Origin: Rhabdophis nuchalis
Taxonomy: Eukaryota; Chordata; Lepidosauria; Squamata; Natricidae
Direction of reading: 5' to 3'
DNA: 64,000 nucleotides
Assembly (NCBI GenBank): GCA_039707465.1
Contig: CM077651.1
Coordinates: 18,855,519 to 18,919,518 of the forward strand
In this document: piece by piece, positions 2,186 to 64,000 of the stretch
How the letters are laid out: every line of letters starts with the position of its first letter
Numbering within the stretch: position 1 is the first letter of the stretch
Program-made: the position numbers and the translations under genes
Notes under the pieces: generated by a model
Told to the model about the DNA's origin: nothing
Seen by the model: only the letters and a program-made list of their open reading frames with translations
Database searches by the model: none

Positions 2186-2885
2186 ATTTTTAAAATGCCT
2201 GTTTTGTGTCTATAAAAATAAAACTTTTGTAGGTTGGGGGTCACCAAATCAAAATTTGTGAGGAATATACCCTTTTTTTGCATAGTCTTTAGACATAAGC
2301 AGTTGAAATATAACACTAAGAAGCAGGAACAAAAATTGTGTTACATAGTGAATCAATGTTATTTTGTAACTGTGGGATCTGTATGCTGAGAAACAGTTCT
2401 TCTAGCATAGGAAGTGACTTTTTTTTTTACTCTCCAGATGTTGTATCAGTTTCACTAATTAAATAATACCAATTCCTGGTGTGTGGATGTGCTAGAATCT
2501 TAATTACACAACTCTACCTTTCTTCTAGTGTAAAGATGGACACCCCCCCCCCCCCTCAGAAATGTTACATTTTCTGACACCTTTTTTTCTTCGGCATTTC
2601 TGTCTGTTACAAATTGTTGTGTATACTTAATGTCCCCAAAGGGAAAGATGTGAATCGCTTATCTAATAAACTTATTGAGCTTTAAACCATTTTAGTTCCT
2701 ATGTCTTACTAAAGGCTGGAAAAAAAACCTGGATAAGCTAATGCTTTACTTATATTTGAGGTCACTTGGTTTCAATAAGTGATACAGGGTATATACAGAT
2801 TGTCAATGTCAGGTATTTAAATCATGTAAATGTTTCCCTTGCTCTGTCACAACCCTTAACCAGGAAGACATTTCATACTCTGCTG
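2186..2885. other. Unassigned AT-rich stretch
   Basis: Probably the 3' flank or UTR-like continuation of the preceding relic. It holds AATAAA-like motifs near 2217 and 2665 and a 14-base C run around 2543-2556. No ORF or known repeat was recognised. Confidence 0.4.
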
Positions 2886-3158
2886 CAGTGGTGGGTTTCT
2901 ACCGGTTCGGCCCGATAGTGGTTTGGTGGTTTGGTGGCCTGGGTCGCTGGAACCGTCAGTGACCCAGGCCTGCCATACCCCCGAACCGGTTCTCTGGGTG
3001 GCGCCATAGGCACTGTCATCTGGTTTTTTGCTTCTGCGCATGCGCAGAACATTTTTTAATTGTACTTTGCATGCGTGCACACTACATGTCAAGAGCGGGT
3101 ACCCATGTTGCACACCCACTAGCAAACCAGCAGTAGTGACTGCCCAAACTCACCCCTG
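2886..3158. mobile_element. Non-autonomous hAT-like element (CAGTGGTGGG family)
   Basis: The left terminus is CAGTGGTGGGTTTCTACC and the right terminus ends AAACTCACCCCTG. The 8-bp flanks CTCTGCTG (2878-2885) and TTCTGCTG (3159-3166) match at 7/8. The interior contains a short foldback (GCCTGGGTCGCTGG / CAGTGACCCAGGC). No coding capacity. Confidence 0.8.
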
Positions 3159-4012
3159 TTCTGCTGGAGTTCCGCCTGTACATATAAAAACAAATGAAAA
3201 GAAATGTGACAAAGAACTAGGAAAAGAAAGCTAATACAAATCCCTCCTTCAATGAAATGACTACATATTGGTGGCATCAAAAATCACAGAAACATTATGA
3301 ATGTGTTTGGATTCAAGTCTTCATCTCCCTAACTTTTCTTTTAATGTGTCAGCTTTATCCAGATTCCAAACACAAACAATCTATAAGGGCATGTTGCAAT
3401 TTCTATTTGTATACATGTTTATCTACATTTCTTCCTGTGTGTTTGCATTCTTTTCCGGGAGGGCACATTTTTCTTTTCCTGAAAGCTGGATTTTATACCA
3501 TTCTGCAGACAATTATAGATTTATTTTTATACATTTCTGAGCTGTGAGCTGTGCCACAACACACTCCACATGCAAAGTGTATATTTCAAACTCTTCTATT
3601 TATTTAGAAAGCCTGAAATTTATTCACATAACTGTTCGACGGGGAGAAATTTAAACACTGATTCCTAAATCATTACACTGACATTGGATTCTGCTCATTG
3701 ACCTGTTCATTGAACTAAATATTTAATCCCAAAGTCTATTTTACACAAAGCACAGTTTGACATGTATTCAGTGAAAGAAAAGCCCTCTATACCATATCAC
3801 AATCTTCTCTTCAGTTTTGGGTTTTTCTGCACTATAGTCTTTGCCTATAGGAGTCTCGTGTGTGTATAAATAGGTTGGAAATGAAACCAGTGTTTGCATT
3901 TCAGCCTCTTCCTCCACTTTGGCTGTTACATGTTGTCTACAGATTGTGTTTGCCATAGAAAAAGAAAATGTTCCCATTGTAATGTTTTTCTGCCTTGAAC
4001 TTGAAAGAGCAA
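3159..4012. other. Unassigned AT-rich stretch
   Basis: Short open frames (for example 3257-3547) have no recognisable domain, and no terminal repeats or structured RNA were seen. Confidence 0.4.
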
Positions 4013-9534: not shown

Positions 9535-10483
9535 CAGGGGTGAAATCTATTTACCTTCGCTACCAGTTCGCAAATGTGAGCCTGCACAGACCTTTCTAGG
9601 CAGGACCTTCCGTGCATGCGCAGAGCATCAAAAATGGACGTGATGATGTCCAGGCAGGTGGGCGGAGCCTGCTACCAAGCATGCCTGCAAAGGCAATAGA
9701 ACAGCAAGGGGGCGAATCCACCATGCCACATGATTTAGATTGGCTAGAAAGCAGGAAATCCCAGGGAAAGCCCTTGGGCTGCCATTCAGGGGGAAGGCTG
9801 TCCGTCGCCAGTGCCACGCCCACTCAGCCATGCTTACACACCGTCAATGCCGCTGCTACCACTAACGCCTCTGGGGCCGCAGCCGCAGCCCCTTTCCTCC
9901 CCTCTCTGATGTCGGTGGAGCTTGTAGCTGCATGCAGCTCTCCATGGCTTCCTTAATGACTCTGCAGGTGCACCTCCTGGACAACAGCTGCACTTCAAAG
10001 CCTACTTTGAAGTAACTCTTCTACTTGGGTGCAACTGCCTACTCTGACATAACTCTTCTACTCGGGTGCAACTGATCAGGAAGGAGGCAATGATGACACT
10101 GAGTGGGGGTGTGGCTGAGGTGGCTATGGGTTATGGTGATTGGTGCTGGTGGTTGGGTATCATCTGGGTGGTTTGTGGGTGGAACTGGGTGGGGTAATGT
10201 TATATATATATGATAATGGTGTGAACTTGGTTAGAACTGACTTGGATTTGCTTACCTTTGTTTCCTTTTCATTCAGTAGATGACACTAGATTAACATTAG
10301 ATTGCTAGAGAGAGATAAAAACCTTGCATCAAACAAACTGCCAGAATGTGACGTCCTGTTTTCTAGCTAATATAAATAGCATGTCACAGCTGATCATTGG
10401 AAATATTGGTTCGGCCGAACTAGTAGCATATTTTAACTACCGGTTCAGGCAAACCAGTCTGAATCGGTTGCATTTCACCCTTG
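9535..10483. mobile_element. Non-autonomous hAT-like element (CAGGGGTGAAAT family)
   Basis: The left end CAGGGGTGAAATCTATTTACC and the right end GGTTGCATTTCACCCTTG are inverted repeats. The right terminus matches the 36306 end of the nested element at 34899-36306. The target duplication is weak (CATGGGTT / GCCTGGTT). The interior is GC-rich near 9600-9960, with a short imperfect tandem repeat of AACTCTTCTACTYGGGTGCAACTG near 10012-10075. Confidence 0.65.
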
Positions 10484-21331: not shown

Positions 21332-22173
21332 CAGTGGCGTAGCGTGGGGGGTGCAGGGGGTGCGGGCCGCACCAGGCGCAACATCTGGGGGGGCGCGCTC
21401 GCACTCGCAGCTCCCCGTCGCTTCGGGAAAGGGGATCGAGTAAGGCAGGAACAGCGGCAGCCGGGGAATGTGGCCACCGCCGCGGGGACCGGAGAAGCGT
21501 CGCCCGAAGCAAGAGCGGCTGCAAGAGGAGGCGTTTTCTCCCCGTCGCCCCGTCTTCTTCCTTGGGGAAAGGATCTTAGGGGATTTTTCATATTTTTATT
21601 AGTATTATTTCTCGGGCGGGGGAGGGGGGATCCGGAATCCAGGAAACCGGGAGGGGGCGGGAAATCGCAGGGAAAAGGAAGAGAGCTCGGCGGGCGGAAG
21701 GTGGGGAGAGCTCGCGCGTTCCAGCTGAATCAGCAGCGCTCTTGTGAATGCGCGGAGATGTAGCTGACAGGGCGGGAGAGGCGTCCCGCTCTCCGGATCG
21801 AAGGGAGGCCAGCTCTTTCGGGTACCTGCCGGCTGCGGCTGCCTCCCCTACCCCGCTGCCGTCGGATCTTCCTGCACCCCTCCTCTCCCCCCTTCCCGTT
21901 TCTCGCTTCCCCGCCGCTCCGCATGCTGCGCCCTCCCCGTCCTCGATGCCGCTGCTTCCCCGGGGGGGGGGGCTAGAAAGGCACCGAGAAGGATGAGCGA
22001 AGGGGTTGCCTCGCCGCTGGGTGCCACAGCCGCTGCCGAGGAGGGGGCGGCGGCGGGCGGGGGCCCTGCGGCGGGCGATGGAGTGGAAGAGACTCGAGTG
22101 CTAAAATCCAGGGGTTAGGGGGCGCAAATTACTTGCCTTGCCCCGGGTGCTGACAACCCACGCTACGCCACTG
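21332..22173. mobile_element. Inner hAT-like element with CpG-rich captured-looking cargo
   Basis: The left end is CAGTGGCGTAGCGTGGGG and the right end is CCCACGCTACGCCACTG. The perfect 8-bp duplication CTTCCACC (21324-21331 and 22174-22181) shows it inserted into the outer hAT. The 842-bp interior is extremely GC- and CpG-rich, resembling a promoter or 5' UTR, and includes an AUG-started peptide at 21993. No transposase. Confidence 0.9.
21993..22118 (+). pseudogene. NRG3: NRG3-like N-terminal coding fragment inside a hAT
   Basis: An ATG preceded by purines (GAGAAGGATGAG) opens 41 codons starting MSEGVASPLGATAAAEEG, followed by an Ala/Gly stretch (AAAGGGPAAGDG) and then a tail that leads to a stop before the right terminus. 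Neuregulin-3 begins with MSEG, an ASPPGAA segment, SAEEG, an Ala tract and a GGGPDGGGEG segment. The order and spacing of these short blocks match well. The part encoding the transmembrane and EGF regions is absent, so no function is possible. Low-complexity composition limits certainty. If correct, the element copied host first-exon DNA. Confidence 0.5.
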
Positions 22174-22902: not shown

Positions 22903-23805
22903 CAGTGGTACCTCGGTTCACAAACGTCTCTCTTCACGACCAATTCGGTGTACGACCAAAAATTTCCCAAAAAATGTGCCCCGGTTCACGAACACCGTTT
23001 CGGTTCACGAACGGAAAAGTTCGTAAAAATATGCTCTGCTTCACGAACTCCACCTCGCTTCACGAACTCCGCGTTATAAACGAGGGCTGGCTGGGGTGGG
23101 GTGACGCAGTGGCGGCCGGTCCATTGAGGGCACAGGCGAATTGTGAGTTCGCACTGCACCTTTTCCGGGCTGCACCCTGCCGCGGTTGTTGTGAGTGAGG
23201 GGGACGGGTGTGTGTGTGGAAGCAAAGGCGGGGTGGGAGGAGCTGCCTTCCCGGCCGGGCTCCGCAACTGAGGGGCGATGGAGCAAACCGCGTGCGGCTG
23301 CCAGCATGACTTTCGCCCGTCTCTTTCTGGGCTCGGCGCTTCTGCTTCTCGGGATGCTTCCCGAAGCCGCCGCCACCGCGCTCCCCGCCGTTCTACCCTC
23401 ACCAGCCCGCCGGCGGGGCGTGGCGGCGGCGGGTCCGGCCCCCGAGAGATGACCGACGAATAAGACGGAGAAACGGAGTGGCTGGCTGCGGGGCTGCTGG
23501 CTTCGGGAAGCGTCCCGAGAAGCAGAAGCGCCGAGCCCAGAAAGAGACGGGCGAAAGTCATGCTGGCTTGCTCCATCGCCCCTCAGCTGCTTTACAATGA
23601 ACCCTATGGGAAACTGTGCCTCTGTTCACGACCAATTCTGTTTGCGAACAGAGTCAGTTCAAGAATCACGACCAAAAAACAAGGTCAGAACGGATTAACC
23701 GGATTTACATTGAACCCTATGGGAAATTGTGCCTCGCTTCACGACCAATTCGGATTGCGAACAGAGTCAGTTCACGAATTAAGTTCGTGAACCGAGGTAC
23801 CACTG
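22903..23805. mobile_element. TA-flanked TIR element (CAGTGGTACCTCGG family)
   Basis: Left end CAGTGGTACCTCGGTTCAC and right end GTGAACCGAGGTACCACTG are inverted repeats, flanked by TA on both sides (22901-22902, 23806-23807). This fits the Tc1/mariner-pogo (Tigger-like) group. Subterminal motifs such as TTCACGACCAATTCG recur several times. The CpG-rich middle holds a long internal inverted repeat. A second member is at 44525-44864. Confidence 0.85.
23267..23585. repeat. Internal inverted repeat encoding a signal-peptide-like N-terminus
   Basis: Arms at about 23267-23366 and about 23500-23585 are near-perfect reverse complements. Each arm contains ATGACTTTCGCCCGTCTCTT, reading M-T-F-A-R-L-F-L-G-S-A-L-L-L-L-G outward: on plus from about 23306, on minus from about 23560. 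The peptide has the positive-hydrophobic pattern of a secretory signal. The parent gene is not recognised. It may be captured exon DNA duplicated in inverted form, or chance. Confidence 0.6.
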
Positions 23806-28495: not shown

Positions 28496-28778
28496 CTGAA
28501 AATATGACCTGCCCTGAAAGTAAGCCCCAGCTTGATTTTTACACATGCACCCAATATAAACCGTACCCTCAAAGTAAACCCTAATTAAGGCCCCATCGCA
28601 GTGGTGGGTTTCAAATTTTTTAGAACCTACTCTGTAGGTGTGACCTATTTTGTGGGCATGGTTTGGCAGTCATGTGACAGGGTGGGAGTGGCCACCTTTT
28701 AAAATGTGGTGAAACTCATTTAACAACGCTCTTGCTTAGCAACCAAAATTTTGGACTCAATTGTGATGATAAATTCAT

Positions 28779-28854
<76 letters not shown>

Positions 28855-29458
28855 TCCTTCCTTCCTTCCTTCCTTCCTTTCCTTTCCTTTCCTTTCCTTC
28901 CCATTGGGTCACTGGCAGCGGCGGGCCAGATTTACTTCCAGGTACGCCGGTGGAACCCCCTCTCACCGGTTCTCTAAATTTCACCAACCGGCTCTCGCAA
29001 GTAGGTGCGAGCCTGCAGAAACCCACCACTGCCCCATCGGCTCCAGGGTGCACGGGTAAAAATTAAGCTAGGGTGGGGATAGGGGGAGGAGCTGCCCTAC
29101 TACTTACCTTTGGATAGTTGCAGCCAGGCCTCACACACTCTGACACCTGCCTTGTTGGCAACATTTTTTTTCTGCTGCAGCCAAGGCTTTCTCAAAGGCC
29201 TCTGCAGCCAATAACAGAGCTTGGGATCAATCTGGAGCTCTCTTATCGACTGCAGAAGCCTTCAGGAAAGCCTCGTCAGCCTTGCCTGCTGCAGAAGATG
29301 TTCCTGAAGGCCTCTGATGGTGAAAAAAAAGGCCAGGGGCGATGCGTACAAGTGAGGTGAGTCAATGGACAACAACCTCCCCCTGAATATAAGACCTGGT
29401 ACTTTTTGGGGGTGGCAAAACAAATATAAGACAGGGTCTTGTTTTTGGAGAAACATGG
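28496..29458. mobile_element. TIR element (CCAKGTTTCCC...AATAAGACC family), interrupted
   Basis: Left end CCAGGTTTCCCTGAAAATATG and right end TTTTTGGAGAAACATGG are complementary, with subterminal AAGACAGGGTCTTG. It is related to the shorter copy at 59886-60140. A complete hAT element sits inside at 28599-29031. The superfamily is uncertain. Confidence 0.7.
28599..29031. mobile_element. hAT-like element with internal TTTC/TTCC array
   Basis: The left end is CAGTGGTGGGTTTCAAAT and the right end is GCAGAAACCCACCACTG. The perfect duplication CCCCATCG lies at 28591-28598 and 29032-29039. About 19 TTTC units (28778-28855), then TTCC and TTTCC units, sit between ATTGTGATGATAAATTC and GTCACTGGCAGCGGC. 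The copies at 37777 and 58026 have the array at the same internal point. Confidence 0.95.
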
Positions 29459-33612: not shown

Positions 33613-34016
33613 CCTTCTGTGCTTCCTCATCATGGTGGGGAGTGTTCCTGGGAGAGATGAGCAAAGGATATTGGAAATATACGCAAAGAGTTCTACCTAG
33701 CTCAATCACCCAAAGGTGAAAGATCATCCCAGTTGGCACCCACTCCTCTCCTAGGAAAATGAGACATTTTAGGAAATATTAAAAGGCAGACTATTACCCT
33801 TAAAAAGGAGGCAGAAACTCAGCCCTCCACCTTTGTCAATGGGCCATTAAGGCCTGAGCCAGTCTATTCTATATAACAAAGATCCACCTCCTTCATGCAA
33901 AACCATAGTAGGAATTGCCCAAAGCCTTTTCATTACATCATCACCCAGCAAGGCTCAACCAAGCTTGGGACTCAGGACAGCCTACAGAGTTGCCCCTGCA
34001 TGGCCCCATAGGATAA
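32806..34016. other. Unassigned stretch with CA array
   Basis: CA repeats lie at 33577-33611. About 60 bp at 33738-33795 (TCCTAGGAAAATGAGACATT, then TTAGGAAATATTAAAAGGCAG) recur inverted at 52226-52285. No gene. Confidence 0.4.
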
Positions 34017-34770
34017 TATGACCAGATTTTCAAACTCACAAAGCGGGACACCATCGACCGGGGGAGGGGGCATGCAGCGGCCTTTCCCAGCTCCGCAGCC
34101 TCACCATCCACTTCCCTCGCTGGCTGGGGGGCACGCAGGCCGACCCCCTCAATCCTTTTCCCCCCCCCGAGCAGGGCACCTGCAGGTAGGCATCTGGTGG
34201 GGTGGTGGAGCAGGGCTGGGCAGGCGGCGGGCGCTCTGCACGTGCTCAGAGGCACGGGGCGGGGGCAGGAAGTGGTGGGCAGGCGGAAGGGGAGGGCCAG
34301 CGAGGGAGGAGCCAGGCCCAGGCAGGCAGCAGGTGGCGGAAGAGGAGGACAGCCTGCCGGAGCCTGAACTTCTTTAAGCCGCGATGCGCTGAGAATGCCC
34401 GCTCGTTCCGCCATGGGCGCCCGGGACGAGCCGGGTAAGGAGGTGGCGGCGGTGGGGCTTCCGTCCAGCTGCTCTCAGCGCATTACGGTGCGGCGCAAAG
34501 AAGTTCAGGGCTGCGCGGGCTCCGGCAGGCTGTCCTCCTCTTCCGCCGCCTGCTGCCTGCCTGGGCCTGGCTCCTCCCTCGCTGGCCCTCCCCTTCTGCC
34601 TGCCCACCAGCCCGCCACTTCCTGCCCATGCCCCATGCCTCTGAGCACGTGCAGAGCACCCGCCACCCGCCCGGCCCCCACCGCCAAAAAGCAGGATATT
34701 TTTAAGAGGATGCGGAGCAGATGCTTGAAATTAGGGTCTGTCCTGCCAAAAGCGGGACGTCTGGTCACCT
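34017..34770. mobile_element. Foldback TIR element with GC-rich inverted arms (GGTGACCAGATTTTC family)
   Basis: Left ATGACCAGATTTTCAAAC with AAGCGGGACACC, and right AAAAGCGGGACGTCTGGTCACCT. Internal arms at about 34205-34395 and about 34465-34680 are inverted copies (GGCGGAAGAGGAGGACAGCC facing GGCTGTCCTCCTCTTCCGCC). The loop holds ATGGGCGCCCGGGACGAGCC followed by GGTAAGGAGG, an exon/splice-donor-like junction at about 34412-34445. A second member is at 62791-63966. Confidence 0.75.
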
Positions 34771-35039
34771 TACCATAGGAGTCTGCAACCAATCAGAATT
34801 CAAGCTCAAATTCAAAAGTCCAGAGAGGGTATAAAACTCAGGCGCTCTCAGCATCTCTCCCCTTTTTTTCTTCAGCCAACATTTTCAAAGCATTTAATCA
34901 GTAGGGAAATCTATTTTTTTGTTTTGCTACTGGTACTGTGGGCGTGGCTTAGTGGTGGGTCATGTGACTGGGTGGGCATGGCCAACATTTTCCCATTTTT
35001 AATAAACATTTCTTTTCTGCCAGTTCAGACAAATAATTA

Positions 35040-47650: not shown

Positions 47651-47851
47651 CAGGGGTGGGTTTCAAAATTTTTGGAACAGGTTCTGTGGGTGTGGCCTGC
47701 TTTGTGGGAGTGGCTTGCCGGCCATGTGACCGGGTAGGAGTGGCTTGCCAGCCATGTGACCGGGTGGGAGTGGCCAATTTGGAAAATGTGAAATTCACTT
47801 AACAATGGTCTTGGTTAGCAACCAAACTTTTGGGCTTAATTGTGGTCATAA

Positions 47852-47912
<61 letters not shown>

Positions 47913-48188
47913 TTCTTTCTTTCCTTCTGTCTTTCTTTCTCTCTTTCTCTCTCTCTCTTTCTTTCTCTTTCTCTCTTTCTGTCTCTCTTTTTTCTCTTTC
48001 TTTCCTTTCTGTCTCTCTTTCTTTTTCTCTCTTTCTCTCTGTCTGTCTATCTTTCTCTCCCTCCCACTCTCTGTCTCTCTGTGTGTGTCTGTCACTCTCT
48101 GGTTCCCCCCTCCCTCCCTGTCTCTCTGTGTGTCTGTGCCTCTCTCTCTCTGTCTGTCTCCCCCCACCCACCCAAGCCTCCTCAGCCT

Positions 48189-48496
48189 CTCTCACCCATC
48201 CACCGGACGAAGGAACCTGGCGTCCGATGGGTGAGCAAGCGAGCGAGCAAAGGCTTTTGAAGCAAAGGCTTCAAAGGCTGCCGGCTAGGAACAGCGCGCT
48301 ACGCTGCGCGAACCCCCCCCCCCCCAGTCGCGGCAAAACTTTCCCTGTTAGCGCGACTGGCAGGGGGGGGGGTTCGCGCAGCGTAGCGCGCTGTTCCTAG
48401 CCGGCAGCCTTTGAAGCCTTTGCTTCAAAAGCCTTTGCTCGCTCGCTTGCTCACCCATCGGACACCAGGTTCCTTCGTCCGGTGGATGGGTGAGAG
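48189..48496. repeat. Long palindrome, ~144-bp arms, 19-bp spacer
   Basis: Arms 48189-48332 and 48352-48496 are reverse complements with very few mismatches (CACCCATCCACCGGACGAAG facing CTTCGTCCGGTGGATGGGTG; GCGCGCTACGCTGCGCGAAC facing GTTCGCGCAGCGTAGCGCGC). A third partial arm is at 48633-48700. Confidence 0.95.
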
Positions 48497-48756
48497 CGAG
48501 AGCGAGAGTAGCCGGTCAGGCTACTTCCAGGAGCTGAGGAGGTTTGGGGGGGAGGGGAGACAGACACACAGAGAGACAGGGAGGGAGGGGGGAACCAGAG
48601 AGCCAGAGAACCCGCTGGCTGTATTTACTCTCTCTCTCACCCATCCACCGGACGAAGGAACCTGGCGTCCGATGGGTGAGCGAGCAAGCGAGTGAGCGAG
48701 CAACCGCGGCCAGCGGGCCAGAGGATTTTTGGGGCGCGCAGCAACTTTCCTTACCC

Positions 48757-49105
48757 GCGGCGGGAAACACGCAAGGAGAATCCACTCCCAGCTGTCTCCT
48801 TTTTCCTTCTGCGAAGGGTACTGGCCGCTGGCAAAGCGGGAGGCTCGGGAAGGCGGCACACACACACACACAACCTACTTCAGGCGGCGGGAAACACGCA
48901 AGGAGAATCCACTCGCGGCTAGGCGTAGGGGGGAAGAGGTGGCTGAGCAAAGGGAAGGGGGGGGGAAAGGCGCTCCCGCCGCCTTCCCGAGCCTCCCGCT
49001 TTGCCAGCGGCCAGTACCCTTCGCAGAAGGAAAAAGAAGACAGCTGGGAGTGGATTCTCCTTGCGTGTTTCCCGCCGCCTGAAGTAGGTTGTGTGTGTGT
49101 GTGTG
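48757..49105. repeat. Second composite inverted repeat
   Basis: GGCGGGAAACACGCAAGGAG occurs at about 48759 and again at about 48884, both facing CTCCTTGCGTGTTTCCCGCC at about 49058-49077. GGGTACTGGCCGCTGGCAAA at about 48818 faces TTTGCCAGCGGCCAGTACCC at about 49000-49019. A CA run at 48857 faces a GT run at 49090. Confidence 0.9.
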
Positions 49106-49594
49106 CTTTCTTTTTTTTTGGCCTGCGGCTCCTGGCCCGAGCGCTGCTCTTCGGAGTTGTCACGGCAGCAGCGGCAGCAGGTTGTGGGGCGACGAGGTGA
49201 GCGGCCCACCCCCACCACCCACCCCCATGGAGAAGGGGAAAGGGGGACCCCTTCGGAGAGCCGGCCTGGCTGTCTTCTTTTTCTCTCAGCGAAGCATGGG
49301 CGAGGAGGAGGCGGCGCTTCGCTGAGGGAAAAAGAAGACAGCGCAGTCGCCTTGCTTGCTTTCCTGCCTGCCCGCCCCAGCTGGGAGCAGCAGTTAGCAG
49401 CGGCGACTTACTTCCGGGTCCACGATCCAAAGGGATCACTCGGGATCCGGAAATTTTACGAAAGGGTTCGCCCGATCCCAGGCGAACCCCCAGAAACCCA
49501 CCCCTGTATAGTACTATATATGGTCCAGGACAAAATCTTTAGAGAAACAAAACATATTCAGCAATAATGTTTTAGAAAGTATGCCTGTTGTGAT

Positions 49595-52744: not shown

Positions 52745-53430
52745 GTACTGTCACCTCTCGACTCGACTACTGTAATGCTCTCTACATGGGGCTTCCCTTG
52801 AGGTGCACCAGAAGGCTGCAGCTAGTCCAGAACGCAGCCGCGCGGGTGATTACGGGAGCGCTTAGACACTCCCACATAACACCGATCCTGCGCGAGCTGC
52901 ACTGGCTTCCTGTGGTCTTTCGGGTGCGCTTCAAGGTTTTAACGACCATCTTTAAAGCGCTCCATGGCTCGGGGCCTAGTTATATGCGAGACCGCCTCCT
53001 GCCCCATACATCCCTCAGACCGATACGCTCCCACAGAGAGGGCCTCCTCAGGGTGCCGTCGGCTGGACAATGCCGACTGGCGACACCCAGGGGGAGAGCC
53101 TTCTCTGTGGCGGGCCCAGCCCTCTGGAACGACTTACCCCCTGAACTCCGCACCATCTCCGACCTCCGCCTCTTCCGCAAGTGTCTGAAGACACACCTAT
53201 TTCATCTAGCCGGTCTAGCGTAACCTCCATACTGACTATTAGATAGTTTTTAAACTTGGGATTTTAATTCGTTTTTTAGCGCAGGGTTTATTTATTAGAA
53301 TAAGTATTTTAAATTTCATATATTTTATATATTTTGTATGTATTTTAACATCCCTGTGCGCCGCCCTGGGTCCTAACAAGGAGAAGGGCGGGGTATAAAT
53401 TTAATAAAATAAATAAATAAATAAATAAAT
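52745..53430 (+). mobile_element. L2-clade LINE 3' end, longest copy
   Basis: An open frame to 53223 with TSRLDYCNALYMGLPLR, then RITPILRELHWLPV-like, FKVLTTIFKALHGSGPSYM, LRPIRSHREGLLRVPSAG, AFSVAGPALWNDLPPEL and LFRKCLKTHLFHLAGLA. The 3' UTR has TTTTTTAGCGCAGGG and GCGCCGCCCTGGG, ending in an AAAT array. The near-intact frame marks it as the youngest L2 here. Confidence 0.9.
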
Positions 53431-62415: not shown

Positions 62416-62790
62416 TGTCATCTTACTACTATATTTTTTTAGAGAGTGCCATTTATGGTAGAGTAATGTTGGCTTAGAACTAGAGAGACGTAGGAAATGC
62501 CCCCAGATGTCTTTTTCAGAGCAGGCCAAAAGCTGGTGGTCAGTGGAGCATTGCTCTTTTATTGTGTTTTTCTTTTAAGGCAAAATATGTTATGTATGAG
62601 TTGTTTTTTTCTAAACTAAAACCTCATGTCAGAGTTTTCCACAGCAATTACATCCAGAAAGCACACACAGGTAACTGATTCAGCAGAATTCATTAACTTC
62701 TCTTTATATATAATATAACACATGAAGTAAATATACAATACCAAAAGCAGGTTTTTCCAATGTAGTAGAGAGGACATTGTAAGTAGGTTA
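62416..62790. other. Unassigned stretch
   Basis: Nothing recognised. Confidence 0.3.
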
Positions 62791-62937
62791 AGGTGACCGG
62801 ATTTTCAAAATCCCAAAGCGGGACACCGTTGATGGGGGGGAGCATGTGTGCGCATGCATGCGCGCTCCAGCACATCACACACCTGTGCAGAGGGCACACC
62901 GGGGCAGGGGCGTGCTCCCAACAACTGCCGCGGGGCC

Positions 62938-63310
62938 ACTTTAAAGGCAGTTGCGGCGGACCGATCCAGCAGCTCTCAGTGCATGAGGGACGGCCTTCGG
63001 GGCGGCTGCTGGGTCTGGCGGCGGTGCAGGAGGTGCCGGCCGAGCAGCCCGATGGCTCCGAATGCGGAAGGTGACAGTGACACGCTGGGACGCAGGGCCC
63101 GCAAGTGCGTCTGGGCCCTGCTCCTGGGGCTGCCTGGTGCAGGGAAGGGCACTCAGATGAGCGGGCCAGGCTCTCGCCTTCTGCACTCGGAGCCATTGCA
63201 CTGCTCGCCTGGCACCTCCTGCGCCACTGCCAGACCCAGCAGCTGTGCGCCTGACCATTGGGCCGAAGGCCGTCCCTCATGCACTGAGAGCCGCCGCCGC
63301 TGCCTTTAAA
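62938..63310. repeat. Inverted repeat with ~145-165-bp arms around a coding loop
   Basis: CAGTGCATGAGGGACGGCCTT near 62978 faces AAGGCCGTCCCTCATGCACTG near 63267. CTTTAAAGGCAG at the left edge faces CTGCCTTTAAAG at the right. ATGGCTCCGAATGCGGAAGG (63052) faces the reverse complement of ATGGCTCCGAGTGCAGAAGG. Both arms therefore start the same peptide, in opposite directions. Arms have diverged by roughly a tenth. Confidence 0.9.
63052..63156 (+). pseudogene. Captured-looking first-exon fragment with Walker A motif (AK2- or PSTK-like)
   Basis: The 35 codons start MAPNAEGDSDTLG, continue RRARKCVWALLLG, and end LPGAGKGTQ. GxPGAGKGTQ is the nucleotide-binding loop of adenylate kinases. AK2 begins with MAP and its first exon, as I recall, ends after GKGTQ. 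Alternatively, GLPGAGKGT after an Arg/Lys-rich lead with a Cys-Val is close to the GLPAAGKST loop of PSTK. The frame then runs into the other inverted arm, so no kinase fold follows. The upstream 5' UTR-like DNA is CpG-rich. Not functional on its own. Confidence 0.55.
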
Positions 63311-63446
63311 GAGTGCTCCGCGGGAGTGGGTGGGAGCATGCCCCAACGTCCTCTGCAGGCGCGTGACATGCCGGAGCGCATGCACCCCTCCTCCGAGGCC
63401 CTCTCCGCCTGAGCCGGCACTCAGAGCGCCCGAAGCGGGACATTTT

Positions 63447-63917
63447 GAAGAAAAGGGGCCTAATTACTTGCGGGACCGCCTCCTGCCACATACCTCCCAC
63501 CGACCAATTCACTCCCACAGAGAGGGCCTTCTCAGGGCCCGACTGCTGGTCAATGCCGGCTGGCGATGCCCAGGAACAGGGCCTTCTCTGTGGCGGGGCC
63601 CGCCCTCTGGAACAACCTCCCCCCCGAACTCCGCACCATCACGGACCTTCCCCTCTTCCGCCGCTCACTTAAGACACTTCTTTTCCAGCAAGCTGGACTG
63701 GCGTAGAACTTGAATTTTAGAACAATAGAGCCTCAGCCAAGTTAGATAGGTTTTTTAATGGGATTTTAGCACAGGTTTTCTATTTAATTTCTTTTTAACG
63801 TTTGTATATTGTTATTTATTGTATATTTTAATGTCCTGTGCACCGCCCAGAGTCTGTCTCGACGGAGAATGGTGCGGTTAACAAATCGAATAAATAAATT
63901 AAATAAATAAATAAATC
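63447..63917 (+). mobile_element. L2-clade LINE 3' end nested in the foldback element
   Basis: GGGGCCTAATTACTTGCGGG, then HTSHRPIHSHREGLL, a damaged AFSV segment (GPSLWRGPPSGTTSPP in the shifted frame), the LFFQQAGL-like end, the UTR TTTAGCACAGG and CCTGTGCACCGCCCAGAGTC, and an AAAT array. The foldback element resumes with GGAGAAGCGGGTCTG. Confidence 0.85.
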
Positions 63918-64000
63918 TAATGGAGAAGCGGGTCTGTCCCGCCAGAAGCGGGACGGATGGTCACCTTAAAGTAGGTACAAACACAGGCAGAGGACAGGAA

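Follow-up and report, generated by a model that had tools for sequence, protein, structure and literature searches.

In plants, the capture of host genes by TIR transposons has been investigated extensively. For plant MULEs, a preference for GC-rich parents is described (PMC4858842), and Pack-MULEs and Pack-TYPE elements carry captured GC-rich gene parts in many copies (PMC4858842; PMC8903248). Concerning animals, Tan et al. (2021, Nat Commun 12:4280; PMC8277862) report in their main text 370 Pack-TIRs from a survey of 100 animal genomes; hAT elements account for 208 of this number. The Pack-TIRs are mostly single-copy, with four multicopy cases plus one fly family, and include a piece of the CAPSL 5'UTR in hAT-N8_XT that was amplified to three places; multicopy elements favour GC-rich cargo, and the model given for them is template switching at stalled forks followed by transposition (PMC8277862). 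Furthermore, Turmoil-1 of C. elegans contains host coding sequence inside transposon inverted repeats (PMC2572040), and FB4 (Ssk-FB4) of Drosophila is a foldback-type element with the start of a host gene (PMC8277862).

A 64,000 bp stretch of the genome of the snake Rhabdophis nuchalis (hereafter the window) contains an element that resembles all of these. This element, E1 (62789-63968, plus strand; 1180 bp including a later insertion), is very probably a non-autonomous hAT-like transposon that acquired a DNA-level copy of the start of the gene AK2 together with a shorter inverted copy and was then amplified, the gene NRG3 having been captured likewise in other elements. It differs from the plant elements in being hAT-like and situated in a vertebrate, and from Turmoil-1, apart from the other element type and host, in being non-autonomous and in including a splice-donor position and intron sequence. 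Concerning FB4, a presumably MULE-like element with TIRs of about 700 bp and TSDs of 9-10 bp (PMC8277862), the difference lies in the 8-bp TSDs and short TIRs found here; E1 thus falls outside the Drosophila FB family, although it possesses long internal inverted repeats of the foldback kind.

E1 begins with its terminal repeat TAAGGTGACC and ends with GGTCACCTTA, and is flanked by a perfect 8-bp duplication, AAGTAGGT (62781-62788 and 63969-63976). Its later insertion (63455-63910, plus strand, borders approximate) is of a LINE/SINE 3'-end type with related copies in the window at 52971, 12549, 41263c and 58933c. The sense AK2-derived DNA (63002-63171, plus strand) is alignable without gaps to the parent gene (positions 2887-3056 of the reverse complement of locus L059, to which all AK2 parental positions below refer) with 148 of 170 bp identical (E 9e-57). 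It consists of 50 bp upstream of the ATG, the complete coding part of exon 1 and, from the splice-donor position onwards, 15 nt of intron 1. The final two nt are common to the start of the inverted copy. The coding part (63052-63156, plus strand) comprises 35 codons, ends at the border of exon 1 and intron 1, and translates to MAPNAEGDSDTLGRRARKCVWALLLGLPGAGKGTQ; the splice-donor position (63157-63158) reads AT in the window copy against GT in the parent. The inverted copy (63170-63279, minus strand) contains upstream DNA and the first 27 nt of the coding sequence, corresponds to parental positions 2963-2854 reversed (80% over 110 bp), and is shorter than the sense copy.

The arms of the resulting inverted repeat (63005-63077 and 63171-63243) are 84% complementary, and outer arms (62969-63000 and 63263-63294) are 97% complementary. 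The 35-codon segment starts inside the left arm and extends with its remainder into the loop; both arms contain the initial 26 bp of the coding sequence, and the right arm reads MAPSAEGES on the minus strand from 63196. The predicted fold of 62938-63312 is far more stable than that of shuffled sequences (z -17; 0 of 100 shuffles as stable). The arms, the TIR and the perfect TSD bear out the first-pass annotation, made from the letters of the window, which had placed an ATG-started 35-codon segment in the loop of an inverted repeat within a TIR element, with the coding start present in both arms in opposite orientation. Its proposal that first-exon DNA had been acquired and part of it duplicated inversely is upheld by the alignment of both arms to the parent, and the nucleotide-level alignment to a squamate exon 1, which it wanted to exceed 80 bp, extends over 170 bp.

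The AK2 protein of Thamnophis sirtalis, the N-terminus of which is MARRAAGLAAAQEVPGA-MAPSAEGESDTLGCRARKGVRALLLGPPGAGKGTQ, matches the segment in the window at 29 of 35 residues in a tblastn search (E 6.5e-12), and nothing better than E 0.6 was found elsewhere in the window with this query. An upstream reading (63003-63062) also matches Thamnophis AK2, in 10 of 20 residues. The parent gene is located on contig C12 of the same genome in separate exons, which are 83-92% identical to Thamnophis. Since its exon 1 matches query residues 12-53 and its exon 2 residues 51-98, the exon border lies right after GTQ; this limit was read from the genome, as the literature texts consulted gave none. It was the use of squamate AK2 proteins as queries that made the exon identifiable. 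The exon peptide alone yields weak matches that are not significant by themselves (PDB E 0.2, Pfam ADK E 0.24), the top four PDB matches being AK2, and a protein search with the window ORF gave seven candidates, none at E <= 10; that search was insensitive, since Thamnophis AK2 is contained in the database concerned. The same start is found in the AK2 proteins from mammals, birds, turtles, one amphibian and one fish, so that the transfer went from gene to transposon; and since the cargo includes unspliced intron 1 and upstream DNA, it was DNA, not mRNA, that was captured.

The 1.92 Gb assembly containing the window was searched for further copies; as these searches score the best candidates only, all copy numbers are lower bounds. 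With a 373-bp query, the core of E1 is found in at least 40 separate places, window included (best 40 of 249 candidates). Thirty-four of these match over most of the query and six partially, five of the latter without most of the sense copy. Because the cargo belongs to this whole subfamily, the window copy most probably descends from the capture event instead of representing it. Altogether 33 copies were read: the window copy, 20 of the other 39 places, and 12 copies obtained through an AK2 protein search (13 loci fetched; L069 was left out, as it showed no match to the cargo).

The 33 copies fall into two types. In type A (21 copies), to which the window copy belongs, the sense copy extends up to about 3056-3058 and begins at 2887 in most copies (at 2851-2853 in L027 and L028), and the inverted copy runs from 2993 or less back to about 2850. 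In type B (12 copies), the cargo starts at 2932-2937 and reaches the end of the parent stretch compared (about 3195-3200); comparison of four of the 12 copies with longer parental DNA extends the interval to 3222-3224. It thus comprises exon 1 and about 180 bp of intron 1, with an inverted copy of 3087-2932 or somewhat less; one copy, L068, is rearranged. Exact 8-bp TSDs were found in 12 of 21 type-A and 5 of 12 type-B copies, TSDs with one mismatch in seven and two, and none in two and five, respectively. When the left 8-mer of one copy is paired with the right 8-mer of another, the two agree with at most one mismatch in 1 of 650 cases, so that with 1026 candidate TIR pairs about one or two chance TSDs are expected, against the 26 of 33 seen. 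The donor GT is present in 31 of the 33 copies; L017 lacks one G of CAGGT, and the gap can be placed in more than one way.

Over the part shared by both types, mean identity to the parent is 92.5% in A and 92.3% in B. Excluding CpG sites, type B diverges from the parent by 4% in the exon (12 copies) and by 13% in the intron part (11 copies), and type A by 10% in the upstream and exon part (20 copies). A constrained parental exon beside a freely changing intron would explain the lower divergence of the exon in type B.

The second gene, NRG3, is found in E5 (21332-22173, plus strand), a hAT-like element with TIR CAGTGGCGTAGCGT and TSD CTTCCACC that contains NRG3 upstream DNA and the start of exon 1. 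Two segments are alignable to the parent, both on the plus strand: an upstream one (21415-21572; 158 of 158 bp identical to parental positions 786-943) and one with further upstream DNA and the first 30 codons from the ATG at 21993 (21570-22083; 502 of 514 bp, parental positions 1078-1591). E5 contains MSEGVASPLGATAAAEEGAAAGGGPAAGDG; a joined query of window peptides (5526 candidates) found six proteins, all of them snake pro-neuregulin-3 (E 0.03 to 0.5), and a Pfam search of the NRG3 peptide found no family. The parent gene lies on contig C3, and its exon 1 is 95% identical to that of Pantherophis; together with the AK2 values for Thamnophis, this figure points to a snake, probably a colubroid. 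Outside the parent, NRG3 exon 1 is found in at least 63 rows representing about 60 separate places (best 65 of 2684 candidates).

Eleven of these loci were read. They are elements of 715-759 bp with TIR CAGTGGCGTAGCGT or a close variant, ten with exact 8-bp TSDs and one (L091) with two mismatches, and contain parental positions 1366 to about 1996, about 165 codons and the 135 bp that precede the ATG; in L088 the cargo begins a little later than 1366. Compared with these, E5 contains a different parental interval, has different junctions on the transposon side and has kept different transposon ends; as judged from these alignments, NRG3 is present in two captured forms. Mean identity of the eleven elements to the parent is 98.2%. 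Single-base codon changes comprise 30 synonymous and 66 nonsynonymous ones, two of the latter being stops, and these raw change counts give no sign of constraint on the cargo. Many NRG3-bearing copies match about 180 codons with none or one stop; the near absence of stops is consistent with youth.

Types A and B differ in their junctions on the gene side as well as on the transposon side (GCTCTCAGCGCG followed by TGAGGG against CCTGCGCAG followed by ATGGCT), and type B is best read as a second AK2 capture, probably separate from that of type A. The second AK2 and NRG3 forms together suggest that the same CpG-rich first exons may have been captured more than once, and the position of the NRG3 cargo in a second terminal-repeat family argues for a repeated process instead of one accident. 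Alternatively, a single old and larger AK2 capture, later trimmed and folded back in different ways, might have given rise to A and B, and likewise to the NRG3 forms, which we consider unlikely but deserving of attention. The two AK2 intervals overlap by 127 bp, and at coding position 24 most copies of both types possess G (13 of 21 A, 12 of 12 B) where the parent and five A copies, window included, have C; Thamnophis AK2 has Glu at this codon, which fits G or A. The loops of type A are of shorter and longer kinds, as if trimmed. In nine of the 21 copies, the sense copy ends with GGCCC and the inverted copy resumes at GCCCTTGC, the shared GCCC at the fold point being a candidate microhomology, and the shorter loops of the other 12, the window copy among them, look like later deletions. 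Nor are the changes specific to A fully private: 27T, 61T and 80T are common to all A copies without a gap at the site, yet one, four and two of the 12 B copies, respectively, have them as well, positions 61 and 80 being CpG-type sites. On the other hand, neither of the two intervals is enclosed in the other, A and B have different junctions to the transposon, and the transposon ends differ between the NRG3 forms too. At position 55, 18 of the 21 A copies have T (two G, one gap), compared with none of the 12 B copies, and an unrooted tree of the 127-bp overlap places B with the parent and apart from A (support 0.90).

Rather improbable, in our estimation, is a re-patterning in which breaks in an element already bearing AK2 or NRG3 were repaired from the parent gene, the captured interval thereby being extended or shifted. 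It would account for the recurrence of the same two genes, and gap filling from parental sequence is the route given in the text of Tan et al. (PMC8277862) for single-copy Pack-TIRs; however, at least one old junction should then remain, whereas A and B share neither junction, nor do the NRG3 forms. A processed AK2 pseudogene, or a retroposed fragment of the gene within a transposon, would be intronless. Nothing in favour of such an origin was seen, and the cargo retains an unspliced donor position as well as part of intron 1 (15 nt in E1 and about 180 nt in type B), so that it is highly improbable. Practically discounted is PSTK or another P-loop kinase as the source, a resemblance in the Walker A motif notwithstanding: the AK2 parent aligns over 148 of 170 bp, the similarity extends 15 nt into AK2 intron 1 before it stops, and among the 51 PDB matches listed for the exon peptide none is named PSTK, such that of the two genes originally put forward AK2 is retained and PSTK is dropped.

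Multiple captures remaining the preferred reading, the molecular steps might be as follows. While a transposon copy was being repaired or replicated, template switching at short homologies would have brought about the capture, the foldback would have formed when a new strand snapped back on itself at the 4-bp shared GCCC, and amplification would have proceeded by cut-and-paste with a transposase supplied from elsewhere.

Concerning classification, TIRs and a TSD surround non-TE DNA in E1 and, with at most one TSD mismatch, in 26 of the 33 AK2 elements, parental copies exist elsewhere in the genome (AK2 on C12, NRG3 on C3), and the cargo is flanked by TE sequence on both sides, as in Pack-TIRs. 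The TIRs of hAT elements are short, with 5-27 bp (PMC3517528), and both families exhibit 8-bp TSDs and short TIRs, of which 10-14 bp were compared; from TSD length and TIRs, they appear to be hAT-like. For the Buster group of hAT, TSDs of the form nnnTAnnn are described (PMC3517528). The centres of the 17 exact TSDs of AK2 elements are TA in eight, AA in five, AT in three and TT in one; TA is also the centre in the related element E2 (see below), and the NRG3 family shows no preference for TA. A TTAA target site, as in piggyBac or Kolobok, is ruled out by the 8-bp duplications of E1 and E2.

A scan of the window for exact 8-bp duplications with matching TIRs yielded six elements. E2 (34014-34772, plus strand; TSD CCATAGGA on both sides) is a foldback element with the termini of E1 (terminal matches of 46 and 39 bp) and without the AK2 segment. 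The segment is hence not part of the consensus of every copy, which by the first-pass annotation would have refuted its reading. Its arms are 98% complementary over 92 nt, and its core is found in at least 40 places in the genome (best 40 of 1254 candidates). A donor-like GT is present in the window copy and in two of 11 others but is missing from the remaining nine, which have C, and for this reason E2 is not claimed to contain a host exon; a host gene of origin was not found, and its peptide matched no Pfam family and no PDB entry. As read off the alignment of copies, a common open frame with MGARDEPGEEAAAVGLPSGCSQRI seems to exist in the core. The motif TCCAGCWGCTCTCAGYGCAT occurs in E1 (element positions 177-196), where it adjoins the AK2 cargo, and in E2 (451-470), with 18 of 20 positions identical between otherwise different interiors.

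E3 (22903-23805, plus strand; TIR CAGTGGTACCTCGGTTCAC, flanked by TA) is a foldback element of another superfamily than E1, with ORF starts at ATG 23306 (plus strand) and 23561 (minus strand). In both arms starts an ORF, MTFARLFLGSALLLLG(M/T)LPEA, that resembles a signal peptide. This ORF start is possibly another captured first exon and is regarded as a candidate; searches with the peptide gave a best PDB match of E 0.63 and a best Pfam match, TPR_4, of E 0.011, which lies below the cut-off of that family and is not credible. In the genome, E3 has at least 315 matches (best 40 of 775 candidates), some of them tandem-like. E4 (47651-49506, plus strand), again hAT-like with TIR CAGGGGTGGGTTTC and TSD TATAGTAC, contains about 1.2 kb of GC-rich filling with several palindromes, the arms of which are 94-99% complementary. 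A simple hAT-like element at 28599-29031 has ends similar to those of E4 and only a microsatellite in place of the filling.

The window as a whole has 41% GC and a CpG observed/expected ratio of 0.37, compared with 58-67% and 0.60-1.06 in E1 (without the inserted part) to E5, and 66% and 0.87 in the AK2 parent region (positions 2501-3500). Eleven CpG-rich stretches exist in the window, five of them situated in E1-E5, one overlapping the simple element at 28599-29031, and four belonging to the LINE/SINE type of the E1 insertion; the remaining stretch, 9681-10000, is GC-rich and was matched to none of the elements. Tentatively, and as a possibility that we rate as less likely than not, several unrelated TIR families might continuously capture CpG-island first exons with their promoter, start codon and 5' splice site. 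They would draw on the same genes again and again and multiply the captured pieces by dozens, and these pieces would act as mobile promoters and first exons from which chimeric transcripts could arise at new sites; the CpG richness of the cargo may in turn favour the spread of the elements.

The kind of capture found here is already known: animal Pack-TIRs, hAT elements and 5'UTR captures among them, are described in the text of Tan et al. (2021, PMC8277862), and share with the present elements the TIRs, the captured host DNA, the identifiable parent and the TE sequence on both sides. The first-pass suggestion of Pack-type capture in a vertebrate was therefore right as to kind, but the case is not novel in this respect, since vertebrate examples are contained in that study. 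Different from the Pack-TIRs described there are the numbers in one genome (at least 40 AK2 and about 60 NRG3 places), the two forms per gene and the foldback AK2 cargo. The main text of PMC8277862 contains none of garter, lizard, reptil- or turtle, and 'snake' only within Snakeskin; NRG3 occurs in it only in DOI strings, and in the text of PMC8303610 not as a whole word. As judged by titles and the start of abstracts, no report was found in the literature in which AK2 or NRG3 is captured or a squamate has Pack-type elements. As far as searched, three points are new: the copy number, the existence of two capture forms for the same first exons and, for a squamate, the foldback form.

Through its AK2 cargo, the genome offers numerous instances of a start codon with an intact-looking 5' splice site behind it. 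The AK2 and NRG3 places constitute a natural series from which the order of capture, folding back, amplification and loss can be derived, and, with NRG3 copies 98% identical to a surviving parent (11 read), this series allows models of template switching to be tested.
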